Assembly (NCBI GenBank): GCA_026387915.1
Contig: JAPLKS010000017.1
Span: 1 to 64,000 of the forward strand
DNA: 64,000 nucleotides
Source: Gemmatimonadota bacterium
GTDB taxonomy: Bacteria; Gemmatimonadota; Gemmatimonadetes; Gemmatimonadales; Gemmatimonadaceae
Direction of reading: 5' to 3'
This document shows, piece by piece, positions 20,085 through 45,326 of the stretch; the stretch's first letter is position 1; each line of letters starts with the position of its first letter. The notes under the pieces were generated by a model. The model was not told where the DNA came from and did no database searches. It was given only the letters and a program-made list of their open reading frames with translations. The position numbers and the translations under genes are program-made.

Positions 20085-20659
20085 TAGACTCTCCGGTCGA
20101 GTAGCGCGCCACCTTGACGGGGCGCATAAGTGACTGCCGCACCACCAGCAACGGCGGCGGCGGGATACCCAGACGCAGGCGTCGCGGCCACGCCGCACAT
20201 CGCCCGCACGTACTGATCCGCGGAATCAATCGCGCCGCGGAGCACGCGGCGGTTGACCTCCACCTCGCGCTGCAACAACCGCGCTTCGCGCGTCACCACC
20301 GCCACCGCTTCGCGCACCGCCTCAGGCGCCTCGCCAACAAAGAAGTCTTCAATGCCGGAGAGGCTGAGGTCATCACCCTCGCCGAGCATATGATTCAGTG
20401 AGCGGCGACGACGACGCGCTTCGCCGAGTGTGACGAGCACACGATGCGTCGCAAATACAGAATCGTCCACGGCGTCGAGGTCGTCGCGCGCCACGGCGTC
20501 GCGCTGACGACGCATGATCGCAATGAGATCGGCGAGCAACCGCGCCTCAGAATGCAACGCGTCACCCAGGGCCGCCACCGTCGCCGACGTGTGAGCAATG
20601 GGCGTGCGCATGAGCATGAGATTTCCAGCAGGAATCACTGCGGGCATCACGTTGGTCAA
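20084..20659 (-). CDS. flgN: FlgN-family flagellar export chaperone
   Basis: Encodes 191 residues, predominantly helical (ATVAALGDALHSEARLLADLIAIMRRQRDAVARDDLDAVDDSV, EAVREAVAVVTREARLLQREVEVNRRVL), matching the FlgN coiled-coil pattern. It has weak sequence conservation, as usual for this family. It overlaps flgJ upstream by 4 bases (ATGA) and flgK downstream by 1 base, and flgK is a classic FlgN client. It would keep FlgK/FlgL export-competent in the cytoplasm. Confidence 0.75.
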   Translation of the reverse strand: MTNVMPAVIPAGNLMLMRTPIAHTSATVAALGDALHSEARLLADLIAIMRRQRDAVARDDLDAVDDSVFATHRVLVTLGEARRRRRSLNHMLGEGDDLSLSGIEDFFVGEAPEAVREAVAVVTREARLLQREVEVNRRVLRGAIDSADQYVRAMCGVAATPASGYPAAAVAGGAAVTYAPRQGGALLDRRV

Positions 20660-21003
20660 CGGATCTCCGGCGCCTCAGGGCGCGGCAACTTCGGACTTTC
20701 GGCAACAGGCGATTGCTGCGGGGACAACCGGTTCTTGAGCTGCGCAACCATCACGTCGCTCAAGTCATGGTGCCACTGCTCGGGTAGTTTATCGGACATC
20801 TTTTGGTCGAGCATCGAGTTGAACATGTCTTCGCCTGCGCCTCCGCTCAGGACGCCTTCATCCTGGGGCACGGTGTCACGCATGGCCTTGAACAGCTGCA
20901 TCACGAACACACCCTCAAACTGTTTGCCAGTTTTCCGGAGGCGTTCCACTTCATCGGGACGCGGAGCCGCTGTCGCGGCGCCGGTCACATTCGGAATCGT
21001 CAT
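20656..21003 (-). CDS. flgJ: FlgJ rod-binding domain protein, without hydrolase domain
   Basis: Encodes 115 residues. KTGKQFEGVFVMQLFKAMRDTVP, then GAGEDMFNSMLDQKMSDKL is the conserved rod-binding (FlgJ N-terminal) region. The C-terminal glucosaminidase found in enterobacterial FlgJ is absent; the protein ends in a Pro-rich tail. It would serve as rod cap or scaffold, and a separate enzyme must open the peptidoglycan. A candidate is the M15-like domain inside FliK at 36961-38970. Confidence 0.85.
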   Translation of the reverse strand: MTIPNVTGAATAAPRPDEVERLRKTGKQFEGVFVMQLFKAMRDTVPQDEGVLSGGAGEDMFNSMLDQKMSDKLPEQWHHDLSDVMVAQLKNRLSPQQSPVAESPKLPRPEAPEIR

Positions 21004-22052
21004 CGGAGCACCACCTCGGCGGTAATCGCGCCCACGTCGCGCAGGGCTTCGAAGATCGCGCCGATCTCACTGGCCGTTGCCTGCATGGCGTGGAGTGCGG
21101 AGGCGATCTTCTGCACCGGCGTACCGGTCGGCACGCGCATGCCGCGCACCGATGCTGTCGTATCAGTTGACGGGCCGATGCTGAGCGTAATGCCAGCGTG
21201 GCTCACGGTGGCTTCACCCACTAGCAACTCGCCGCCTGCCACCACCGTGCCGTCGCGTCCGTCAATCACAAGCTTGGCCGCGCGAGCCGGGCGCACCTTC
21301 ACATCACGCACACGTGCGAGCGCATTCGCGAATCCGCCGGCGGTGTCCTTGAACGCGAGGACGATTGACCCGGGATCCTCGACCTTCGCAATCCCCTTGG
21401 CGCCTAGCGCCGAGTCGATCGCCGCGGCCATACGGGTGGCGGTCACGAGGTCTGGTTCACGCAGCAACAACTTATTGGAGGTCGCCATCTGCGGACGCGG
21501 CATGTCGGCTTCGAGCATGCCACCATCTGGGACGCGCGCGGTGGTGAGCAGCTGCGCCTGCTGACGGCTGACGCCACCAACGCTCACCACGAGCGCACCC
21601 TGCGCACCGGCGAGTGGCTTGCCACCAGCGTCCGCAACGAGCGGCGTCATCCACAACACGCCACCGCGCAGCGACTGTGCATCGCCTAGCGACGACACGC
21701 GCACTTCAAAGTGTCCGCCCGGGCGGAGGTACGGAGAGATTTCAGCCGTCACGAGCACCGCCGCCACATTGCGCGTGCGCAGCATTTCAGCGGGTACTTC
21801 CACATCGAAACGACGGAGCAGGTTGACCACCGACTGCACGGTCTGCCGCGAACCGGAGGTGCCCATCACGCGATCGCCGGTCCCGTTGAGGCCGGTCACG
21901 AGACCGTAGCCCATCAAACGCACCGGCGGCGCGGCATCGGTCATCACGAGGTCGCGCACGCGCACATCCTGGGCGCGTGCCGTACCAGCCACCACCGAGA
22001 GGAGGAGAGCGGCGAATACCGCGCGACGAACCACAAACGAAAGTGACATCAT
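21000..22052 (-). CDS. flgI: Flagellar P-ring protein FlgI
   Basis: Encodes 350 residues with a signal peptide ending near TARAQ. Family blocks are VRDLVMTDAAPPVRLMGYGLVTGLNGTGD, LRRFDVEVPAEMLRTRNVAAVLVTAEI, LSSLGDAQSLRGGVLWMTPL and VVAGGELLVGEATVSHAGITLSI. It is a periplasmic ring around the rod in the peptidoglycan layer. It overlaps flgH and flgJ by 4 bases each, so the gene block is tightly coupled. Confidence 0.95.
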   Translation of the reverse strand: MMSLSFVVRRAVFAALLLSVVAGTARAQDVRVRDLVMTDAAPPVRLMGYGLVTGLNGTGDRVMGTSGSRQTVQSVVNLLRRFDVEVPAEMLRTRNVAAVLVTAEISPYLRPGGHFEVRVSSLGDAQSLRGGVLWMTPLVADAGGKPLAGAQGALVVSVGGVSRQQAQLLTTARVPDGGMLEADMPRPQMATSNKLLLREPDLVTATRMAAAIDSALGAKGIAKVEDPGSIVLAFKDTAGGFANALARVRDVKVRPARAAKLVIDGRDGTVVAGGELLVGEATVSHAGITLSIGPSTDTTASVRGMRVPTGTPVQKIASALHAMQATASEIGAIFEALRDVGAITAEVVLR

Positions 22053-22696
22053 GGCCAGACGAGTCCGAGAACCTTCGAGAGAATACCCGAGCGCGGCGTG
22101 CCGAGCGATCCACCCTTTTGGGCGTACTCGATCTGCGCGTCTGCGATCTTGGTGGAGAGCACGGCGTTGCTCGCCGCATCCACATCCTGCGGCCGGATCC
22201 AGCCCGTGACGACGACGTCCTGCTGGTTCTTGTCGATGTTCACGAGTTTATGTCCGCGAATCTGCAGCATGCCCTGGGGCGACACGCCGATCACACGCAC
22301 GCTCATCTGCGACCGGAAATCGTTGCCGCGATTGGCGAGGCCCGCCTTGCGCGAGTTGCCGTTGTTGTCGAAGTCCATGCTCACATCGACGTTGGCCGAC
22401 GGCGCGCCAGGCGAAGCGGGCGGCCGAATGTTCAGCCCGAGCGACTTAGAGCGATTCTCCGAGTTGTTGTCGGTGAGGTTGGCATTGGCACTGGTGCGTT
22501 CGTTGATCATCACCATGATGATGTCCCCAACGCCGTAGCGCATCTTGTCTGAGGTCCACGACTGACGCACCGGCGGCTGTAGCGCAAACGAATCCGCCAC
22601 CGGCTTGGGCGCCGTCTTGCTCTGGGCAGCGAGCGCCAATGCGGTCATCGGCAACAGCGCTGCCGCACAGCACGCGCGGCGAAGGAACGGGGTCAT
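22049..22696 (-). CDS. flgH: Flagellar L-ring protein FlgH
   Basis: Encodes 215 residues from ATG 22696, which has GAGGAG upstream at 8 bases; ATG 22711, overlapping the flgA stop, is the alternative. Conserved blocks are MRYGVGDIIMVMINERTSANAN, FRSQMSVRVIGVSPQGMLQIRGHK, NIDKNQQDVVVTGWIRPQDVD and IEYAQKGGSLGTPRSG. It forms the outer-membrane ring. Unlike the usual lipoprotein, the signal region ends ALALAAQS with no lipobox cysteine, so this FlgH appears not to be lipidated. Confidence 0.92.
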   Translation of the reverse strand: MTPFLRRACCAAALLPMTALALAAQSKTAPKPVADSFALQPPVRQSWTSDKMRYGVGDIIMVMINERTSANANLTDNNSENRSKSLGLNIRPPASPGAPSANVDVSMDFDNNGNSRKAGLANRGNDFRSQMSVRVIGVSPQGMLQIRGHKLVNIDKNQQDVVVTGWIRPQDVDAASNAVLSTKIADAQIEYAQKGGSLGTPRSGILSKVLGLVWP

Positions 22697-22707
22697 CGTG
22701 AAACTCC

Positions 22708-23175
22708 TCATGGAAGCGAAATAGTCGCGGGGCCAGTCACGGTCCCGGTAATAGTGCGTTGGGCATCCAAGCGCACGCGCACACGTTCCCCTAGCACACC
22801 AGGGCCGAGTGCGGTGCCATCACGCGAAACCACAATGCCGTCTACTGTCGCCTGCACCCGTACTGGGGCGCCGGCATGGACCAACTGCGGCGGAGCAATT
22901 GCCGGCTCCCGCAACGCTTCGCCCTGACGGACAATGCGACGGGTGATCCAGCCATCTATAGAAGCAGGATTGCCATCTGCCTCGGCGACAATATCACCGA
23001 GCGAGAGCACGAGCCCCCGCGGCAGATCGCGCGCGGCGCGAAGCGTGGCCGGGGCCACACGACCCGCCGATGCCACCTGCACGCTCTGCGTTGCCGACGC
23101 AGCTGCCCCCTGCGCGTCGGCAGCGCGAACGCCGGCGACGAGCAAGAGTCCCGCGAGCAACGCCCGATGCGTCAT
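22708..23175 (-). CDS. flgA: Flagella basal body P-ring formation protein FlgA
   Basis: Encodes 155 residues with a signal peptide (cleavage near ADAQ). A SAF-type fold follows: RAARDLPRGLVLSLGDIVAE, RRIVRQGEALREPAIAPPQLVHAGAPVRV and the C-terminal GVLGERVRVRLDAQRTITGTV. It is the periplasmic chaperone for P-ring (FlgI) assembly. It sits between flgG and flgH with a 2-base gap upstream. Confidence 0.88.
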   Translation of the reverse strand: MTHRALLAGLLLVAGVRAADAQGAAASATQSVQVASAGRVAPATLRAARDLPRGLVLSLGDIVAEADGNPASIDGWITRRIVRQGEALREPAIAPPQLVHAGAPVRVQATVDGIVVSRDGTALGPGVLGERVRVRLDAQRTITGTVTGPATISLP

Positions 23176-25660: not shown

Positions 25661-26413
25661 TCAGTCTCTCCAGGAATGCTGGCGCGCCGCATGGGAAGCG
25701 AACGCTGTGGTGGTGATTTCAGTAACCAGTCGTGCTGCGATCTCTAATCCGGTTTGTCCGGCGCGGAACCGGTCAGCGACATACGGGAGCGGATGGGCGG
25801 CAAGAATAGCCGCCCGCAACTCTTCATCTTCAGGAATCGTGCCAGCGTATCGCAGTTCGCGGTTGAGGAACCGCGAAGCGGCACTTTGCACCGATCGAAA
25901 TGCGTCAAGACCGCGTGCGGTATCTTGGCGATTGACGGCAAAATCAATCACCGCGAGCGGAGCGGCTTCGTGAATGGACTTCACCACGGCGTACGCTGCC
26001 GCGAGCGAGCCAGCGTCAATACTCGCGCTCACCACCAAGTGGTGCGCATCCAGCGTGCTCGCCACAGCACTGATCATGTCGTGCTGCGAGCCAGCATCGA
26101 TCACCACCACTTCATGTTCGCGAAACGCTGGCAGGAGTTTCCTGACCGCGGAGCGACTATCCCCCCCGGCAAGCATTGCCGTGCTGATGCCGAGCTGGTC
26201 GGCAGAATCGCCGAGCATTTTGGCACGTTCATCCGCATCGTTGGCGGTGCCGACGAGCATCGTGCGCCGTGACTCCGCACCGGCAGTTACGGCCATGAGC
26301 ATAGCCATCACCGACACGCCAGATCCTCGGCGTGGCGCACTCACCGCGATGATGCGCGTGTCGCCAAGTTGCGCCGCTGCGCGTCGACCGTTGAACGAAC
26401 GCGGTGCGGTCAT
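25661..26413 (-). CDS. flhG: FlhG/MinD-like protein with degenerate P-loop
   Basis: Encodes 250 residues in the FlhG position, between flhF and fliA. The fold resembles a MinD-type ATPase (IIAVSAPRRGSGVSVMAMLMAV, EVVVIDAG, LVVSASIDAGSLAAAYAVVKSI, DFAVNRQD). However, the deviant Walker A (normally GKGGVGKT) reads PRRGSGVS at about 28-34, so both signature lysines are missing. FlhG normally stimulates the FlhF GTPase and limits flagellar number. Here ATP-driven membrane cycling is doubtful, and the protein may act constitutively or as a FlhF/regulator partner only. It overlaps flhF by 4 bases. Confidence 0.75.
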   Translation of the reverse strand: MTAPRSFNGRRAAAQLGDTRIIAVSAPRRGSGVSVMAMLMAVTAGAESRRTMLVGTANDADERAKMLGDSADQLGISTAMLAGGDSRSAVRKLLPAFREHEVVVIDAGSQHDMISAVASTLDAHHLVVSASIDAGSLAAAYAVVKSIHEAAPLAVIDFAVNRQDTARGLDAFRSVQSAASRFLNRELRYAGTIPEDEELRAAILAAHPLPYVADRFRAGQTGLEIAARLVTEITTTAFASHAARQHSWRD

Positions 26414-34925: not shown

Positions 34926-36257
34926 CTATCGCTTGAGGTTCACGAGCTCTTGCAGCAGTTCGTCGCTCGTCGTGATGACCTTGCTGTTGGCCTGGAAGCC
35001 ACGCTGAGCGATGATCATTGAGGTGAACTCCTGTGCCAGATCGACGTTCGACATTTCGAGCGCGCCGCTGGTGAGCGTGGACTGGCTGCCTTCGAGGGCA
35101 AAGCCGAGCACCGCGCCGCCGGAGTTGGACGACTCCGAGTACATGTTATCGCCCACGCGCAGCAAGCCGGCGGGGTTGTTGAAGTCGGCAAGCGCAATCT
35201 GCGCGAGCGCGACGTTGACGCCGTTCGTGAACGCGCCGGTCACTTTCCCGGTGCGATCGATCGTGAAGTTCTGGAGCGTGCCCGAGGTGTAGCCGTCTTG
35301 GTCGCGCAGCACGGCGGTGGTGCTGCCCGAGAACTGCGTGAGACCGTTCACGCCGACACCCGGATCCATGGCGATGCTCACCGCGGCAGCGCCGGGCGGA
35401 GTAAACGTGATGGTCTGGAGTGTCGGTGACGACATGGTGCCGTCCGTTTGGAACGTAAAGACACCGCCGCCCGCGACCGTGGTGGGGTCCACACCCTGCG
35501 CCGCCAGGTCAGCCTTATCAACTTCCCACGTCCACTCACTGTCGTCGGACTTGTACAGATACGCCTTGACGTCGTACTTGGTGCCGAGGGAATCGAAGGT
35601 CGTGATCGACGCTTCCGTCCACGACTTGGCATTCGCGGCCACAGCACGCGTATCCGTTCCGAATCCACCGACGAGAGGGTTGCCGGCGCCGGCTCCGTCT
35701 GGATCGGTCAGATCAAAGATCGGCGCGGATGCATCGAGGTTGCCGGCGAGCTTGACGCTCGAGGTCGACTTGGCCGCCGTCTTCTGGCCGAACGGAAGCT
35801 GAATGTCCGTAATGCCTTCTTGAAACACGCCGTTGATGGCCACCTTGCCCTGCACCACAAATCCGTTCGACGGCGACACAAGCTTACCGTTGGCGTCCAC
35901 CTGGAAGTTACCGGCGCGCGTGTAGTAGCTCTGCGTTCCCTTTCGCGCGACGAAGAACGAATCGCCCTGAATCGCGACGTCGGTGTTGAGGCCGGTCGTT
36001 TCGAGGTTGCCCTGCGAGAACACCGTGTCCACGGAACCGATCTGCATGCCGAGTCCGACCTGCACCGGGTTGATACCGCCCTGATCGCCAGGCGGACGGC
36101 TGCCGCCCTGCAATAGCTGGGCAAAGCCTTCCTTGAACGTGACACGACCGGACTTGAACGCCACTGTATTGACGTTCGAGATGTTGTTGCCGATCACGTC
36201 CATTCGGATCTGGTGATTCCGAAGGCCAGACACGCCGGCGAAAAGAGAACGAAGCAT
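34926..36257 (-). CDS. flgE: Flagellar hook protein FlgE
   Basis: Encodes 443 residues. N-terminus MLRSLFAGVSGLRNHQIRMDVIGNNISNVNTVAFKSGRVTF, then FAQLLQG, GLNTDVAIQGDSFFVAR, and C-terminus LEMSNVDLAQEFTSMIIAQRGFQANSKVITTSDELLQELVNLKR are classic. The central domain (about 150-350) is the surface-exposed variable part. It polymerises into the hook under the control of FlgD and FliK, encoded just upstream. AGGAGT precedes the ATG. Confidence 0.96.
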   Translation of the reverse strand: MLRSLFAGVSGLRNHQIRMDVIGNNISNVNTVAFKSGRVTFKEGFAQLLQGGSRPPGDQGGINPVQVGLGMQIGSVDTVFSQGNLETTGLNTDVAIQGDSFFVARKGTQSYYTRAGNFQVDANGKLVSPSNGFVVQGKVAINGVFQEGITDIQLPFGQKTAAKSTSSVKLAGNLDASAPIFDLTDPDGAGAGNPLVGGFGTDTRAVAANAKSWTEASITTFDSLGTKYDVKAYLYKSDDSEWTWEVDKADLAAQGVDPTTVAGGGVFTFQTDGTMSSPTLQTITFTPPGAAAVSIAMDPGVGVNGLTQFSGSTTAVLRDQDGYTSGTLQNFTIDRTGKVTGAFTNGVNVALAQIALADFNNPAGLLRVGDNMYSESSNSGGAVLGFALEGSQSTLTSGALEMSNVDLAQEFTSMIIAQRGFQANSKVITTSDELLQELVNLKR

Positions 36258-36274: not shown

Positions 36275-36964
36275 TTAGTTAGCGCCGAACACTTGCACGA
36301 CCGTCCCGGACGAGAAGGTTCGAGTACCGCTGGTTATTACTGCACCGTTCGTGCCAAACTGAATTCCATCGACGCGCGTTGTGATAAGAGGCGTGGGATT
36401 TGTGACCTTTCCCGTGCCGTCCTTGAAGTCGAACGCAACCTTATACGTGCCGGGGATGAGCCCGTCGGAGAGCGTGGTCAACGAGTAGCTGTGCTTGCCG
36501 CTGGTCACACTTCCCATGTCCTGTGACCGTAACGTGTTGCCGTTCGCATCCGTGATGCGGACGGTGAGTTTGCCACCACCGTTCGGAATGTTGACCGCCG
36601 CCGCCGACGTGGGAGACGTGCCGCCCACGGCGATCTGCGGATCAGCCACTTCCACGTTCTTACCAATCAGGCCCAGCGTCGCCGAGTTGTTGATGGCATT
36701 GACCAGCGATGCATTGCTGTTGGACTGCGCCGTCAGCGTGCTGTTGATACTCTGGAGCTGCTCCACCGAGGAGAACTGCGCGAGCTGCGACGCCATCTGC
36801 GACCCGTCCTGCGGAGCGAGTGGGTCTTGGTGCGTCATCTGGGCAATGAGCAGTTTGATGAACTGATCCTTTCCCATGGCGCCGCCAGCGCCGGCCGTCA
36901 GCGGATCAACCGTGCTGCCGGAGGTGGTGCTGGTGTAGCCCGTACTGCCGATTGGTGCTGTCAC
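36275..36964 (-). CDS. flgD: Flagellar hook assembly scaffold FlgD
   Basis: Encodes 229 residues. MGKDQFIKLLIAQMTHQDPLAPQDGSQMASQLAQFSSVEQLQSIN is the N-terminal capping signature; the C-terminal FlgD Ig/Tudor-like part includes LTVRITDANGNTLRSQDMGSVTSGKHSYS and GTYKVAFDFKDGTGK. It is the temporary cap for hook growth. It overlaps fliK upstream by 4 bases and lies 17 bases before flgE. Confidence 0.94.
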   Translation of the reverse strand: MTAPIGSTGYTSTTSGSTVDPLTAGAGGAMGKDQFIKLLIAQMTHQDPLAPQDGSQMASQLAQFSSVEQLQSINSTLTAQSNSNASLVNAINNSATLGLIGKNVEVADPQIAVGGTSPTSAAAVNIPNGGGKLTVRITDANGNTLRSQDMGSVTSGKHSYSLTTLSDGLIPGTYKVAFDFKDGTGKVTNPTPLITTRVDGIQFGTNGAVITSGTRTFSSGTVVQVFGAN

Positions 36965-38970
36965 GGTGTATCTCCCTTCTGCTCCCGACGGGAGCGGTTG
37001 CGGGACGGGTCCTGTTGTGAACGCTGTCCCTGAGCATCGCCGCGTGAACGCGACGATGAAGAAGTCTCTGCGAAAAGCGTGCCGGGCCGTGCGAGAGCAG
37101 CCGCGCCGGACGCGGCGAGACCGCGCGCGGAGTCGGGCGCCGAACTGCCGGCAATCAATGCCGAGGCGCGAACCCGCAGGGCGTCGGTCGACAACCCCCG
37201 CGCTTCGAGCGCCGAACTGAGTTCCTGAATCCGGTTGTTGATCTGTTCAGCGGTGGCGGCATCTCGTACGTCGATCGTGGCGCCCACAGTGGAGCCGCGC
37301 ACCCCGACGCGAATACGATCTTCGCCGCCCTCACCATTGTCCATCTTGAGCGTCATGAACGAGGCCGGCTGCGCGTCGCGCGCATCCTGCAGGGCGAGCA
37401 CCTGGTCCACACGCGATGCCGCGCTGGTACCCACAAGTCCCGATCCTTCCGTTGGTGTCACCAACGCACGCGTCATCTCACTGCCAATAGACCGAAGGTC
37501 GGCCAGGCGCGCTTCCGGAGTACGCGGCTCGCGCGAATCAGTCGGCGACGTCGATGCATCCGAGGCGCTCCGAACCGCAGCGCCTTGACGATCCGGTGCC
37601 GAACGCTCACGATCGCCACGCGTGCTGGCGTCGTTGCGCGTGCCGCCTACGGTCACCAGCGTGTCACTTGTGACCTGCGTTGCGGAGCCGGGCGTTGCGG
37701 AGCTGGGCGCTGCGGAGCCGGGCGTTCCTGTTGCGGCAACATTCGCCGCACGCGCCACGCCGGCCACAGCGGCAACAGCTGCCACACGGGCCACCCGCGC
37801 CACGTTCAGCGCGGCTGCCGACGCTGGCAATTCCTGCGTCAAGGACGCAACAGCTCTAGCGTTCGTGGCCGTGTCAGCGGCGGGGTTCACCGTCGCTGCA
37901 ATCTGCACGTCAGTCACAGTCGCAAACTTGCCAATGTCGCTCACCGAACGACCACCCGGCAGCTGCACATGTCCTGGGTCGCGCGGTCCGAGTGTCTGCA
38001 GCCCTTCTTCCTGCGCAACCTGGGCTAAGTGCTGATACCCAGCCGCATTGTCCCACTTACCGTCCACTACAAGATCTGCGGCGGCGCCAGCGGAGTGCTG
38101 CGACGCACGCGTCCAAGTGACCACCGGACCGGGACGTGTACGCCCCTGTTCGGCAAGATAATCCTGGCGCGTTTGACTTCTCCACGCCTCATTGACCGTG
38201 ACGTCGTGTCCGAACTCGTCCTTCATTCGCTCGATGACGCGTTCTACTTTCGCGCGGAACTCCGGCTGCAGCGAACTCACATCACGCACGATAAGTGTCG
38301 GATCAACCGCAGCGAGTGCGCGGCTGGCGTCGAGTGGAGATGCGCCCGCGGCGTTGGTTGCGGCTCCGGTCAAATCCGTCGACGAAGCATCGGTCGGAGC
38401 AGCGGTCGAAGCGTCGGCCGATGCGGCCTTCGCGTCGGTGGTCAACGCTGTGGCAGTTGCCGCAGCGGCATCTGCCGCCTTAGCATCTGCCGCCTTAGCA
38501 TCTGCCGCCTTAGCGTCAGAATCACCGGCTACGCGCGCGATCAGTTCACGTAGCGCATCGGTCGCGGCATGCCGTGGGGTCACAGCGCCAGCATTTTCGT
38601 CTACGAGCGCGGCCGAACTGGACGCCGCATCGGCTGTGGAAACATTCGCATCGCTCTGCACCGTGCCATCGCCAGACGACGACTGCGACGAAGCATCGAC
38701 CGGCATTTGCGCATTATCCGACGACACGGTCATGACCGAACCTTCGCTCGGGGGCAGGATCGTACCGTCACTCGAAACGTTGTCGCTCTCAGCGTTTGCG
38801 TTCGGCTTCAACACACGCGCGAGTAGCCCGGCAAAACGCGCGTGCGTAGCCGAGGGCAACGTACCATCCATCCGCTGCGAGTCCGCACCGCTCCCCGGCA
38901 TCGCCGAGAATGGCGCTCCTCCTCCCACGGGCGCGCCCGAAGGCGCGAAGGTCGGCATGACGTTGCTCAC
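36961..38970 (-). CDS. fliK: FliK-like hook-length protein with embedded M15-type peptidase domain
   Basis: Encodes 669 residues, between a MotE-like gene and flgD, the usual fliK position. The N-terminal 220 residues are low complexity (Ala/Asp/Ser, with AKAADAKAADAKAADA). Residues about 233-338 resemble a D-Ala-D-Ala peptidase/endolysin of the M15 superfamily: EAWRSQTRQDYLAEQGRTRP, then SQHSAGAAADL with candidate zinc ligands H292 and D299, and DPGHVQL with H334. The C-terminal part (about 545-625) is FliK-like (LKMDNGEGGEDRIRVGVRG, then INNRIQELSSALEARGL). FliK measures hook length and triggers the FlhB switch. A peptidoglycan hydrolase insert is unusual and may replace the enzyme missing from FlgJ. 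Confidence 0.8.
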   Translation of the reverse strand: MSNVMPTFAPSGAPVGGGAPFSAMPGSGADSQRMDGTLPSATHARFAGLLARVLKPNANAESDNVSSDGTILPPSEGSVMTVSSDNAQMPVDASSQSSSGDGTVQSDANVSTADAASSSAALVDENAGAVTPRHAATDALRELIARVAGDSDAKAADAKAADAKAADAAAATATALTTDAKAASADASTAAPTDASSTDLTGAATNAAGASPLDASRALAAVDPTLIVRDVSSLQPEFRAKVERVIERMKDEFGHDVTVNEAWRSQTRQDYLAEQGRTRPGPVVTWTRASQHSAGAAADLVVDGKWDNAAGYQHLAQVAQEEGLQTLGPRDPGHVQLPGGRSVSDIGKFATVTDVQIAATVNPAADTATNARAVASLTQELPASAAALNVARVARVAAVAAVAGVARAANVAATGTPGSAAPSSATPGSATQVTSDTLVTVGGTRNDASTRGDRERSAPDRQGAAVRSASDASTSPTDSREPRTPEARLADLRSIGSEMTRALVTPTEGSGLVGTSAASRVDQVLALQDARDAQPASFMTLKMDNGEGGEDRIRVGVRGSTVGATIDVRDAATAEQINNRIQELSSALEARGLSTDALRVRASALIAGSSAPDSARGLAASGAAALARPGTLFAETSSSSRSRGDAQGQRSQQDPSRNRSRREQKGDTP

Positions 38971-39590
38971 TTGGACGCAACCTTACCCTTGAGCAGCACT
39001 TTACTCAGAGCGGCCGCGCGTGCTGCGGGCATCATCGTCATCACCTCACCGGCCTTCTTGTCTGGCAAGGCGCCGAGGATGGTCAGGACATCGGCTTCAT
39101 CCATCTGCTCGAGCACTTTCGCCGCGTCCTTTGAAGACATCGTACTAAAGATTTTCGATAGACGTCCACCGGCCACAATATTCGGTGATCCAACAGTCGC
39201 GGGCGCGGGTGCTGCCACCTTTGCTGCGGGAGTGGCGGGCGCTGTCTTTTTCGATTCTGGGGCGCTCACGACTTTCGCATCCGACCCGGCAACCTTTGCC
39301 GTAGCAGGCGCGGCCATCGGCTCGGCCTTGGCCGGTGCGGCAGCTTCCTTCGTGGCTTCGGCGCTGGCGGGCTCAACAGCGGCCGCCTCCGGAAGCGCGG
39401 CGGCCTTTGCAAGCTCTTCACTTGGGGCTGCGGCTGTCGGTGCTTTCGCCTTTGCGAGACTGTCTGTCTTCGCCGCAAGCTTCTTCGTCGCTTCCGCAAC
39501 GGCAGCCTTTTCCCGTTGCACGACGACGGCGATACTACCGCCCAGTCCGAGTGCAAAAAGAATAGCAGCGATGATAATGGACTTTTTCAT
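38967..39590 (-). CDS. MotE/FlbB-like flagellar protein with MgtE-N-type domain
   Basis: Encodes 207 residues: one N-terminal transmembrane helix (SIIIAAILFALGLGGSIAVVV), a long Ala/Lys/Pro-rich linker, and a C-terminal helical domain (LSKIFSTMSSKDAAKVLEQMDEADVLTILGALPDKKAGEVMTMM) of the MgtE-N/FliG-M type. This is the layout of MotE/FlbB periplasmic motor proteins that stabilise stators. Gene order fliJ - this gene - fliK is common for that family. It overlaps both neighbours by 4 bases. Confidence 0.7.
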   Translation of the reverse strand: MKKSIIIAAILFALGLGGSIAVVVQREKAAVAEATKKLAAKTDSLAKAKAPTAAAPSEELAKAAALPEAAAVEPASAEATKEAAAPAKAEPMAAPATAKVAGSDAKVVSAPESKKTAPATPAAKVAAPAPATVGSPNIVAGGRLSKIFSTMSSKDAAKVLEQMDEADVLTILGALPDKKAGEVMTMMPAARAAALSKVLLKGKVASK

Positions 39591-44972: not shown

Positions 44973-45326
44973 TCAGGCCCTGATGTCGAGTCGGCGACCG
45001 CGAATCGGCGGCGCGTTGGTGGTCGGGGTCTTCAGATTCATGACTTTCGAATACGTCAGCGGACCAGAGCTCGCCGAGCGCGCAAAGAAGTTGCGCTCTT
45101 CATTCGTGAGGATGCTCCAGAGCGCCGGATCGGTGCCCGCCGGCGCCTGCACACCACTCGCCGTGACGGCCGGGCGCTGCGCGTTGGCGGCACTGTCCAG
45201 TTTCGAGCTGTCAGCGCGCGTGCCCAAGGCGCGAGTTGCTTCGCCGTTGGCAGGACGCGTCTGCGTCTGATCGAGGCGCGCGGTGAGCGCGTCGCGGAGA
45301 GAGTTGTTGACGCCGGAAAGACTCAT
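44973..45326 (-). CDS. Unrecognised 117-residue protein in the flagellar operon
   Basis: A small protein inserted between flgC and fliE, 2 bases from fliE and 11 from flgC. The first 70 residues are polar and probably disordered (LRDALTARLDQTQTRPANGEA). The C-terminal half has DPALWSILTNEERNFFARSASSGPLTYSKVMNL. I do not recognise a named family. Position among early rod and MS-ring genes suggests an export substrate, chaperone or rod-assembly factor. There is no signal peptide or transmembrane segment. Confidence 0.65.
   Translation of the reverse strand: MSLSGVNNSLRDALTARLDQTQTRPANGEATRALGTRADSSKLDSAANAQRPAVTASGVQAPAGTDPALWSILTNEERNFFARSASSGPLTYSKVMNLKTPTTNAPPIRGRRLDIRA

Follow-up and report, generated by a model that had tools for sequence, protein, structure and literature searches.

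A FliK Flagellar Ruler With a Predicted Internal LAS/M15 Peptidase Domain in Most Flagellated Members of the Gemmatimonas Class

Main Finding and Its Context

The fliK gene of the window, the 64,000-nucleotide stretch of DNA analysed here, encodes a hook-length ruler with an internal, predicted zinc peptidase domain of the LAS/M15 type, a fusion called FliK-M15 below that recurs across the Gemmatimonas class. The protein is interpreted as a FliK with two functions, an exported ruler and a peptidase that opens the wall for the rod in place of a FlgJ-borne enzyme. This interpretation is considered probable with room for real doubt, as peptidase activity, the bond cut, export, zinc folding outside the cytoplasm and the role at the rod stage are all inferred. 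No earlier description of FliK-M15 was found in the open-access literature, and its novelty is provisional, since most subscription papers were not covered. The carrier (FliK) and the enzyme class are new; flagellar proteins that carry their own wall hydrolase are already known. How the wall is opened for the rod in bacteria with a single-domain FlgJ has been worked out in only a handful of model species, and FliK-M15 offers a fused, conserved and testable candidate across a whole class.

Gene Organization and Domain Architecture

The fliK-M15 gene (36961-38970, minus strand) has a GTG start and encodes 669 amino acids. The original prediction, which named no strand, had read this ORF as a FliK protein carrying an M15-type peptidase domain, and the ORF was found to be real. 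Residues 1-222 (38305-38970, minus strand) form the N-terminal region, assigned from translation and hydropathy; it is rich in Ala, Ser and Asp and is probably disordered. Hydropathy revealed no obvious Sec-signal-like N-terminus in FliK-M15, and a type III export signal is expected within this region by analogy with Salmonella FliKN (PMC6972891). The C-terminal switch domain, Flg_hook (PF02120), was matched by residues 531-602 (37165-37380, minus strand) with an E-value of 2.5e-5 and 24.4 bits, below the 29.8-bit gathering score of Pfam, which bears out the predicted FliK-like C-terminus with a sub-threshold match. Relatives encoded in the same slot also match Flg_hook, weakly to well. The N-terminal region and the switch domain assign the protein by family to the exported flagellar type III rulers; its own export is inferred, and FlhB binding and hook-length control are likewise inferred from the family.

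The gene order supports the same assignment. A FliK gene should lie in the hook operon beside flgD and flgE, and this criterion is satisfied: as the original prediction had it, fliK directly precedes flgD-flgE on the same strand, with flgD (hook cap; 36275-36964, minus strand) overlapping the end of fliK and flgE (hook protein; 34926-36257, minus strand) downstream of flgD. The start of fliK-M15 adjoins a gene for an MgtE_N/MotE-like protein, fliJ and fliI. The MgtE_N/MotE-like gene (38967-39590, minus strand) is a conserved neighbour directly upstream of fliK; its product has a long Ala-rich linker, and it lies between fliJ and fliK in most loci of the class. The ring genes flgI and flgH (P and L rings; 21000-22711, minus strand) are also present, indicating that the rod passes through both peptidoglycan and an outer membrane.

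Two further ORFs of the flagellar region were noted. A 117-residue protein without a Pfam match is encoded between flgC and fliE (44973-45326, minus strand); the same position is kept in nearly all class loci, and the product may be an unrecognised flagellar component or chaperone. A 250-residue ORF between flhF and fliA (25661-26413, minus strand), also without a Pfam match, occupies a position where flhG might be expected.

Family and Predicted Fold of the Peptidase Domain

The peptidase domain, of the L-Ala-D-Glu endopeptidase type by profile and fold, spans residues 233-342 (37945-38274, minus strand). Translation placed both predicted motifs, SQHSAGAAAD and DPGHVQL, where the original prediction had put them. 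The former (SxHxxGxAxD; residues 290-299; 38074-38103, minus strand) supplies the predicted zinc ligands H292 and D299, and DPGH within the latter (residues 331-334; 37969-37980, minus strand) supplies the predicted general base D331 and the third predicted ligand H334. H292, D299 and H334 had been named in advance at these positions; D331 is a fourth conserved residue that had not been listed.

When the single domain sequence was searched against PDB sequences, Ply500 (E 5.8e-5) and LysB4 (E 2e-4) were matched. A profile of 25 family members matched LysB4 (E 8e-14) and Ply500 (E 1.9e-13); Hedgehog and LdcB, which also have the LAS fold, ranked below them. Pfam is weak for this one sequence (Peptidase_M15_3, E 0.3 at full length and 3e-4 for the domain alone), and Pfam VanY is matched by 18 of the 25 members of the domain family. 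An AlphaFold2 model of the domain, built from 48 sequences, reached a pLDDT of 86.1 and a pTM of 0.76. Its best Foldseek matches were 2vo9, 6akv, 8q2g and 5opz; the best matches among solved structures were Ply500, LysB4, LysECD7 and ChiX, all L-Ala-D-Glu endopeptidases, followed by LdcB and VanX-type enzymes. The M15 call, made originally from motifs, is therefore upheld by profile search and by predicted fold, which also rule out a chance motif.

The criteria for LAS/MEROPS M15 membership, namely sequence homology, the LAS fold, H/D/H ligands and a general-base Asp or Glu (here D331) three residues before the last His, are satisfied. On sequence and model evidence, residues ~233-342 are a predicted zinc peptidase domain of the M15/LAS type. 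It is most probably an L-Ala-D-Glu endopeptidase cutting the peptide stems of peptidoglycan, with activity and exact bond being inferred. No specific phage donor of the domain could be named, because the nearest phage proteins are only about 30% identical.

Distribution Across the Phylum

The domain and FlgD, used as a marker for flagella, were searched in the same 395 genomes of the phylum, with a strong domain match defined as an E-value below 1e-26. A strong match was found in 85 genomes and FlgD in 101, with both in 82; the three strong-match genomes without FlgD are fragmented assemblies, one of which (G142) shows flagellar genes beside fliK (L070). Outside two families, f2 and f11, the fusion is present in 82 of 87 flagellated genomes. 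In four of the five exceptions (G169, G187, G248 and G352) flgD lies close to the end of a contig or right at it, and the fifth, G040, has a decayed domain. In the fliK of G040 (L068:4830-6551) the HxxxxxxD motif is gone, and the surrounding flagellar genes are kept.

Neighbourhoods were examined for 30 or more phylum loci with flanks and for 57 GTDB loci from an independent scan. In every strong-match locus so examined the domain lies inside the ORF at the fliK position, flanked by fliJ/MgtE_N and flgD wherever the contig is long enough to include them. The carriers are labelled nearly all as Gemmatimonadetes, Gemmatimonadaceae, Gemmatimonadales or Longimicrobiales; two are labelled Candidatus Kuenenia and Planctomycetota and may be mislabelled MAGs. 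A survey of FliK in other Gemmatimonadota had been proposed with the original prediction, and its outcome, a strong domain match in 85 of 395 genomes, is that the FliK-M15 fusion is a class-wide trait, present in most flagellated members of the Gemmatimonas class. A gene-prediction artefact or misassembled fusion is ruled out by the same architecture in these 85 genomes, which come from many assemblies.

The weak matches at L061-L067 lie away from the flagellar cluster and belong to stand-alone M15 proteins, not to FliK. Those at L061-L065, in some genomes of family f6, are about 320-410 amino acids long and are related to the FliK domain. A tree of the M15 domain alone, meant to date the fusion, was poorly resolved, with too few columns.

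Conservation and Selection at the Active Site

Of 84 distinct domains, 83 keep all four residues, H292, D299, D331 and H334; two rows flagged by the counting script differ in spacing alone. In G171 the first zinc ligand, H292, is replaced by Gln and the flagellar genes are kept. In the GTDB set, conservation of D331-H334 is partly built in, as DxGH was part of the scan pattern; no such bias affects the phylum set. Of the three conditions set to refute the original prediction, neither a missing M15 fold match nor a model without clustered H292, D299 and H334 was borne out: the fold proved confident, with zinc peptidases as its best matches, and the three residues are kept in all but the one domain, with the geometry of the site not measured.

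In the two informative pairs, G000 against two congeners, the dN/dS of the peptidase was 0.20 and 0.07. The remainder of FliK gave 0.40 and 0.36, and the FliK C-domain 0.15 and 0.20. The peptidase values are close to those of the C-domain, indicating that peptidase and switch domain are under about equally tight constraint. The M15 domain is under strong purifying selection; catalysis itself is inferred. For the window protein, a dead remnant is ruled out by these ratios and by the 83 of 84 intact sites, the decayed G040 and the G171 domain lacking one ligand notwithstanding.

Selection on fold and active site could also be read in terms of length control, the domain serving mainly as a folded knob on the ruler that binds wall or zinc and either pauses export or detects the exit of the tip from the periplasm. 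The domain does sit between the N-terminal ruler and the C-terminal switch, and switching by Salmonella FliK depends on pauses and domain unfolding (PMC13344023); the rulers of f2 and f11 manage without M15, so that the wall function could lie elsewhere. A structural role, however, needs neither H/D/D/H in 83 of 84 domains nor a dN/dS near 0.1, and a knob of this kind is regarded as unlikely without being dismissed. The original prediction had left rod penetration and hook-length sensing side by side; wall opening at the rod stage is the favoured of the two.

FlgJ and Other Wall Hydrolases

If the FliK peptidase does the job of the FlgJ hydrolase, genomes should carry one or the other. FlgJ of the window (20656-21003, minus strand; 115 amino acids) has only the rod-binding domain, as originally noted, and no wall hydrolase domain. 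FlgJ likewise consists of the rod-binding domain and a short tail only in ten other genomes of the M15 lineage (L092-L101), nine of them with the fusion and one, G187, with its fliK off the contig. In f11, which belongs to another class of the phylum, an SLT domain lies inside the FlgJ ORF in 6/6 genomes. No M15 was found in three f11 FliK proteins examined (~1000 amino acids), and the domain profile had no match in six f11 loci; two of the three proteins were scanned, and both match Flg_hook. The FlgJ proteins at L102-L105 (f11) are fusions of rod-binding domain and SLT lytic transglycosylase, a different solution to wall opening. On this reading, the carrier of the enzyme was swapped in evolution within one phylum. 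The functional link between the FliK peptidase and wall remodelling, offered as inference in the original prediction, remains so and is strengthened by co-occurrence with flagella and by the alternation with FlgJ-SLT.

The same alternation bears on whether the exported enzyme might act on the wall for some other purpose, such as remodelling the P-ring or stator site, freeing wall fragments or attacking other cells after release. Hook growth is a stage at which FliK also leaves the cell (PMC13344023), and phage endolysins are the closest structures; both points would suit such a purpose. The alternation points instead to rod insertion, and the amounts exported are expected, by inference, to be small and tied to assembly; these other purposes are accordingly rated as very improbable.

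Family f2, with eight flagellated genomes in the same order as the M15 lineage, departs from the pattern. No M15 was found in six f2 FliK proteins examined and no hydrolase in five f2 FlgJ proteins examined (L072-L079), indicating that another enzyme can do the job there. A FliI-FliG-FliF tree places f2 beside f1 and f6, with f4 and f5 outside; on this placement two changes, a loss in f2 and a decay in G040, account for the pattern, subject to a midpoint root that is not independently fixed. Evidence against the wall-opening reading includes f2, flagellated without either enzyme, and G171 and G040, which keep flagellar genes despite a lost ligand and a decayed domain.

The third refuting condition, a separate dedicated rod hydrolase together with non-conservation of H292, D299 and H334, was not fulfilled either: no GH73 was found in the window's own genome, and the scanned window ORFs yielded no further wall hydrolase, so that a hidden rod hydrolase was discarded as a candidate within those bounds. 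The genome has two SLT enzymes, both outside the window; aflagellate congeners keep one or two. In the single-contig relatives G019, G073 and G068, no SLT lies near the flagellar genes. The idea that extra SLT copies compensate f2 for its missing M15 is unsupported, since the SLT number also varies, from 1 to 9, in genomes with FliK-M15.

A general, non-flagellar lytic transglycosylase might nevertheless open the wall, with the FliK peptidase as a helper that enlarges the hole by trimming peptide stems. At least one SLT is kept in every class genome tested, a stem peptidase alone leaves glycan strands uncut, and Borrelia and Rhodobacter use separate SLTs (PMC8517470). Aflagellate congeners, however, possess SLTs to the same extent, the enzymes are not part of the flagellar cluster, and TagX is a stem endopeptidase able to serve a wall-crossing machine (PMC5061870). 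A merely auxiliary peptidase is considered quite unlikely; a general cell SLT may still open the wall, as the SLT survey cannot exclude a dual-use enzyme.

Proposed Mechanism

Two precedents bear on the preferred reading, in which the FliK-borne peptidase itself opens the wall. A Salmonella FliK-beta-lactamase fusion is active in the periplasm, with activity highest in mutants whose structure stops short of the outer membrane and falling at later stages (PMC13344023). These data suggest that a FliK-borne enzyme would reach the periplasm during rod growth and the medium afterwards. T6SS biogenesis in Acinetobacter depends on TagX, a Ply500-like L,D-endopeptidase (PMC5061870). From both precedents, the most likely role of the FliK peptidase is to open peptidoglycan for the rod.

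In the proposed sequence, FliK would be exported repeatedly during rod growth, a stage at which the export channel still has its opening in the periplasm. The peptidase would pass through the channel unfolded, then fold and bind zinc at the rod tip, loosening the wall exactly at the rod's point of passage. Once the P and L rings have formed and the tip is outside the cell, further FliK would pass to the medium, and wall cutting would be self-limiting. FliK-M15 would be a natural counterpart of the artificial beta-lactamase fusion, with delivery of a periplasmic enzyme controlled by how far assembly of its own export machine has progressed. Whether placing wall cutting on the ruler couples penetration and length control in one polypeptide, which would cut the wall while the rod grows and stop doing so through the export-specificity switch once the hook is long enough, with the carrier changed between classes (FliK-M15 and FlgJ-SLT), is an evenly balanced question.

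Comparison With Known Systems

Dual-domain FlgJ is found in beta- and gamma-proteobacteria. Like FliK-M15, dual-domain FlgJ of Salmonella and E. coli, a rod cap joined to a GH73 glucosaminidase, is a type III-exported flagellar protein that brings its own hydrolase to the rod tip (PMC8517470). There the enzyme sits on the rod cap and cuts glycan, whereas here a zinc stem peptidase sits on the ruler and FlgJ is single-domain. SltF of Rhodobacter and BB0259/LTaseBb of Borrelia are flagellar wall enzymes that also serve a single-domain FlgJ; unlike FliK-M15, they are separate lytic transglycosylases, and LTaseBb is proposed to be Sec-exported (PMC8517470).

Among the peptidases, TagX of the Acinetobacter T6SS is likewise a LAS endopeptidase resembling Ply500, with the insertion of a secretion machine through the wall as its dedicated task (PMC5061870), but it is a stand-alone inner-membrane T6SS protein and is not fused to an exported ruler. 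The endolysins Ply500, LysB4 and LysECD7, together with ChiX, share the HxxxxxxD...DxxH layout; they are separate lysis or secretion enzymes, whereas the FliK-M15 domain is internal to FliK and has no recognised wall-binding domain. With canonical Salmonella FliK, the protein shares the Flg_hook switch domain, the long N-terminal part and a gene in the hook operon. Canonical FliK consists of ruler, linker and switch domain without an enzymatic domain (PMC6972891), and FliK-M15 has one. It does not qualify as a dual-domain FlgJ, as the genome's own FlgJ is rod-binding only and the FliK-M15 ORF has no match to the rod-binding family. FliK-M15 may work like the FlgJ hydrolase without being one, and it belongs to FliK and to LAS/M15 at once.
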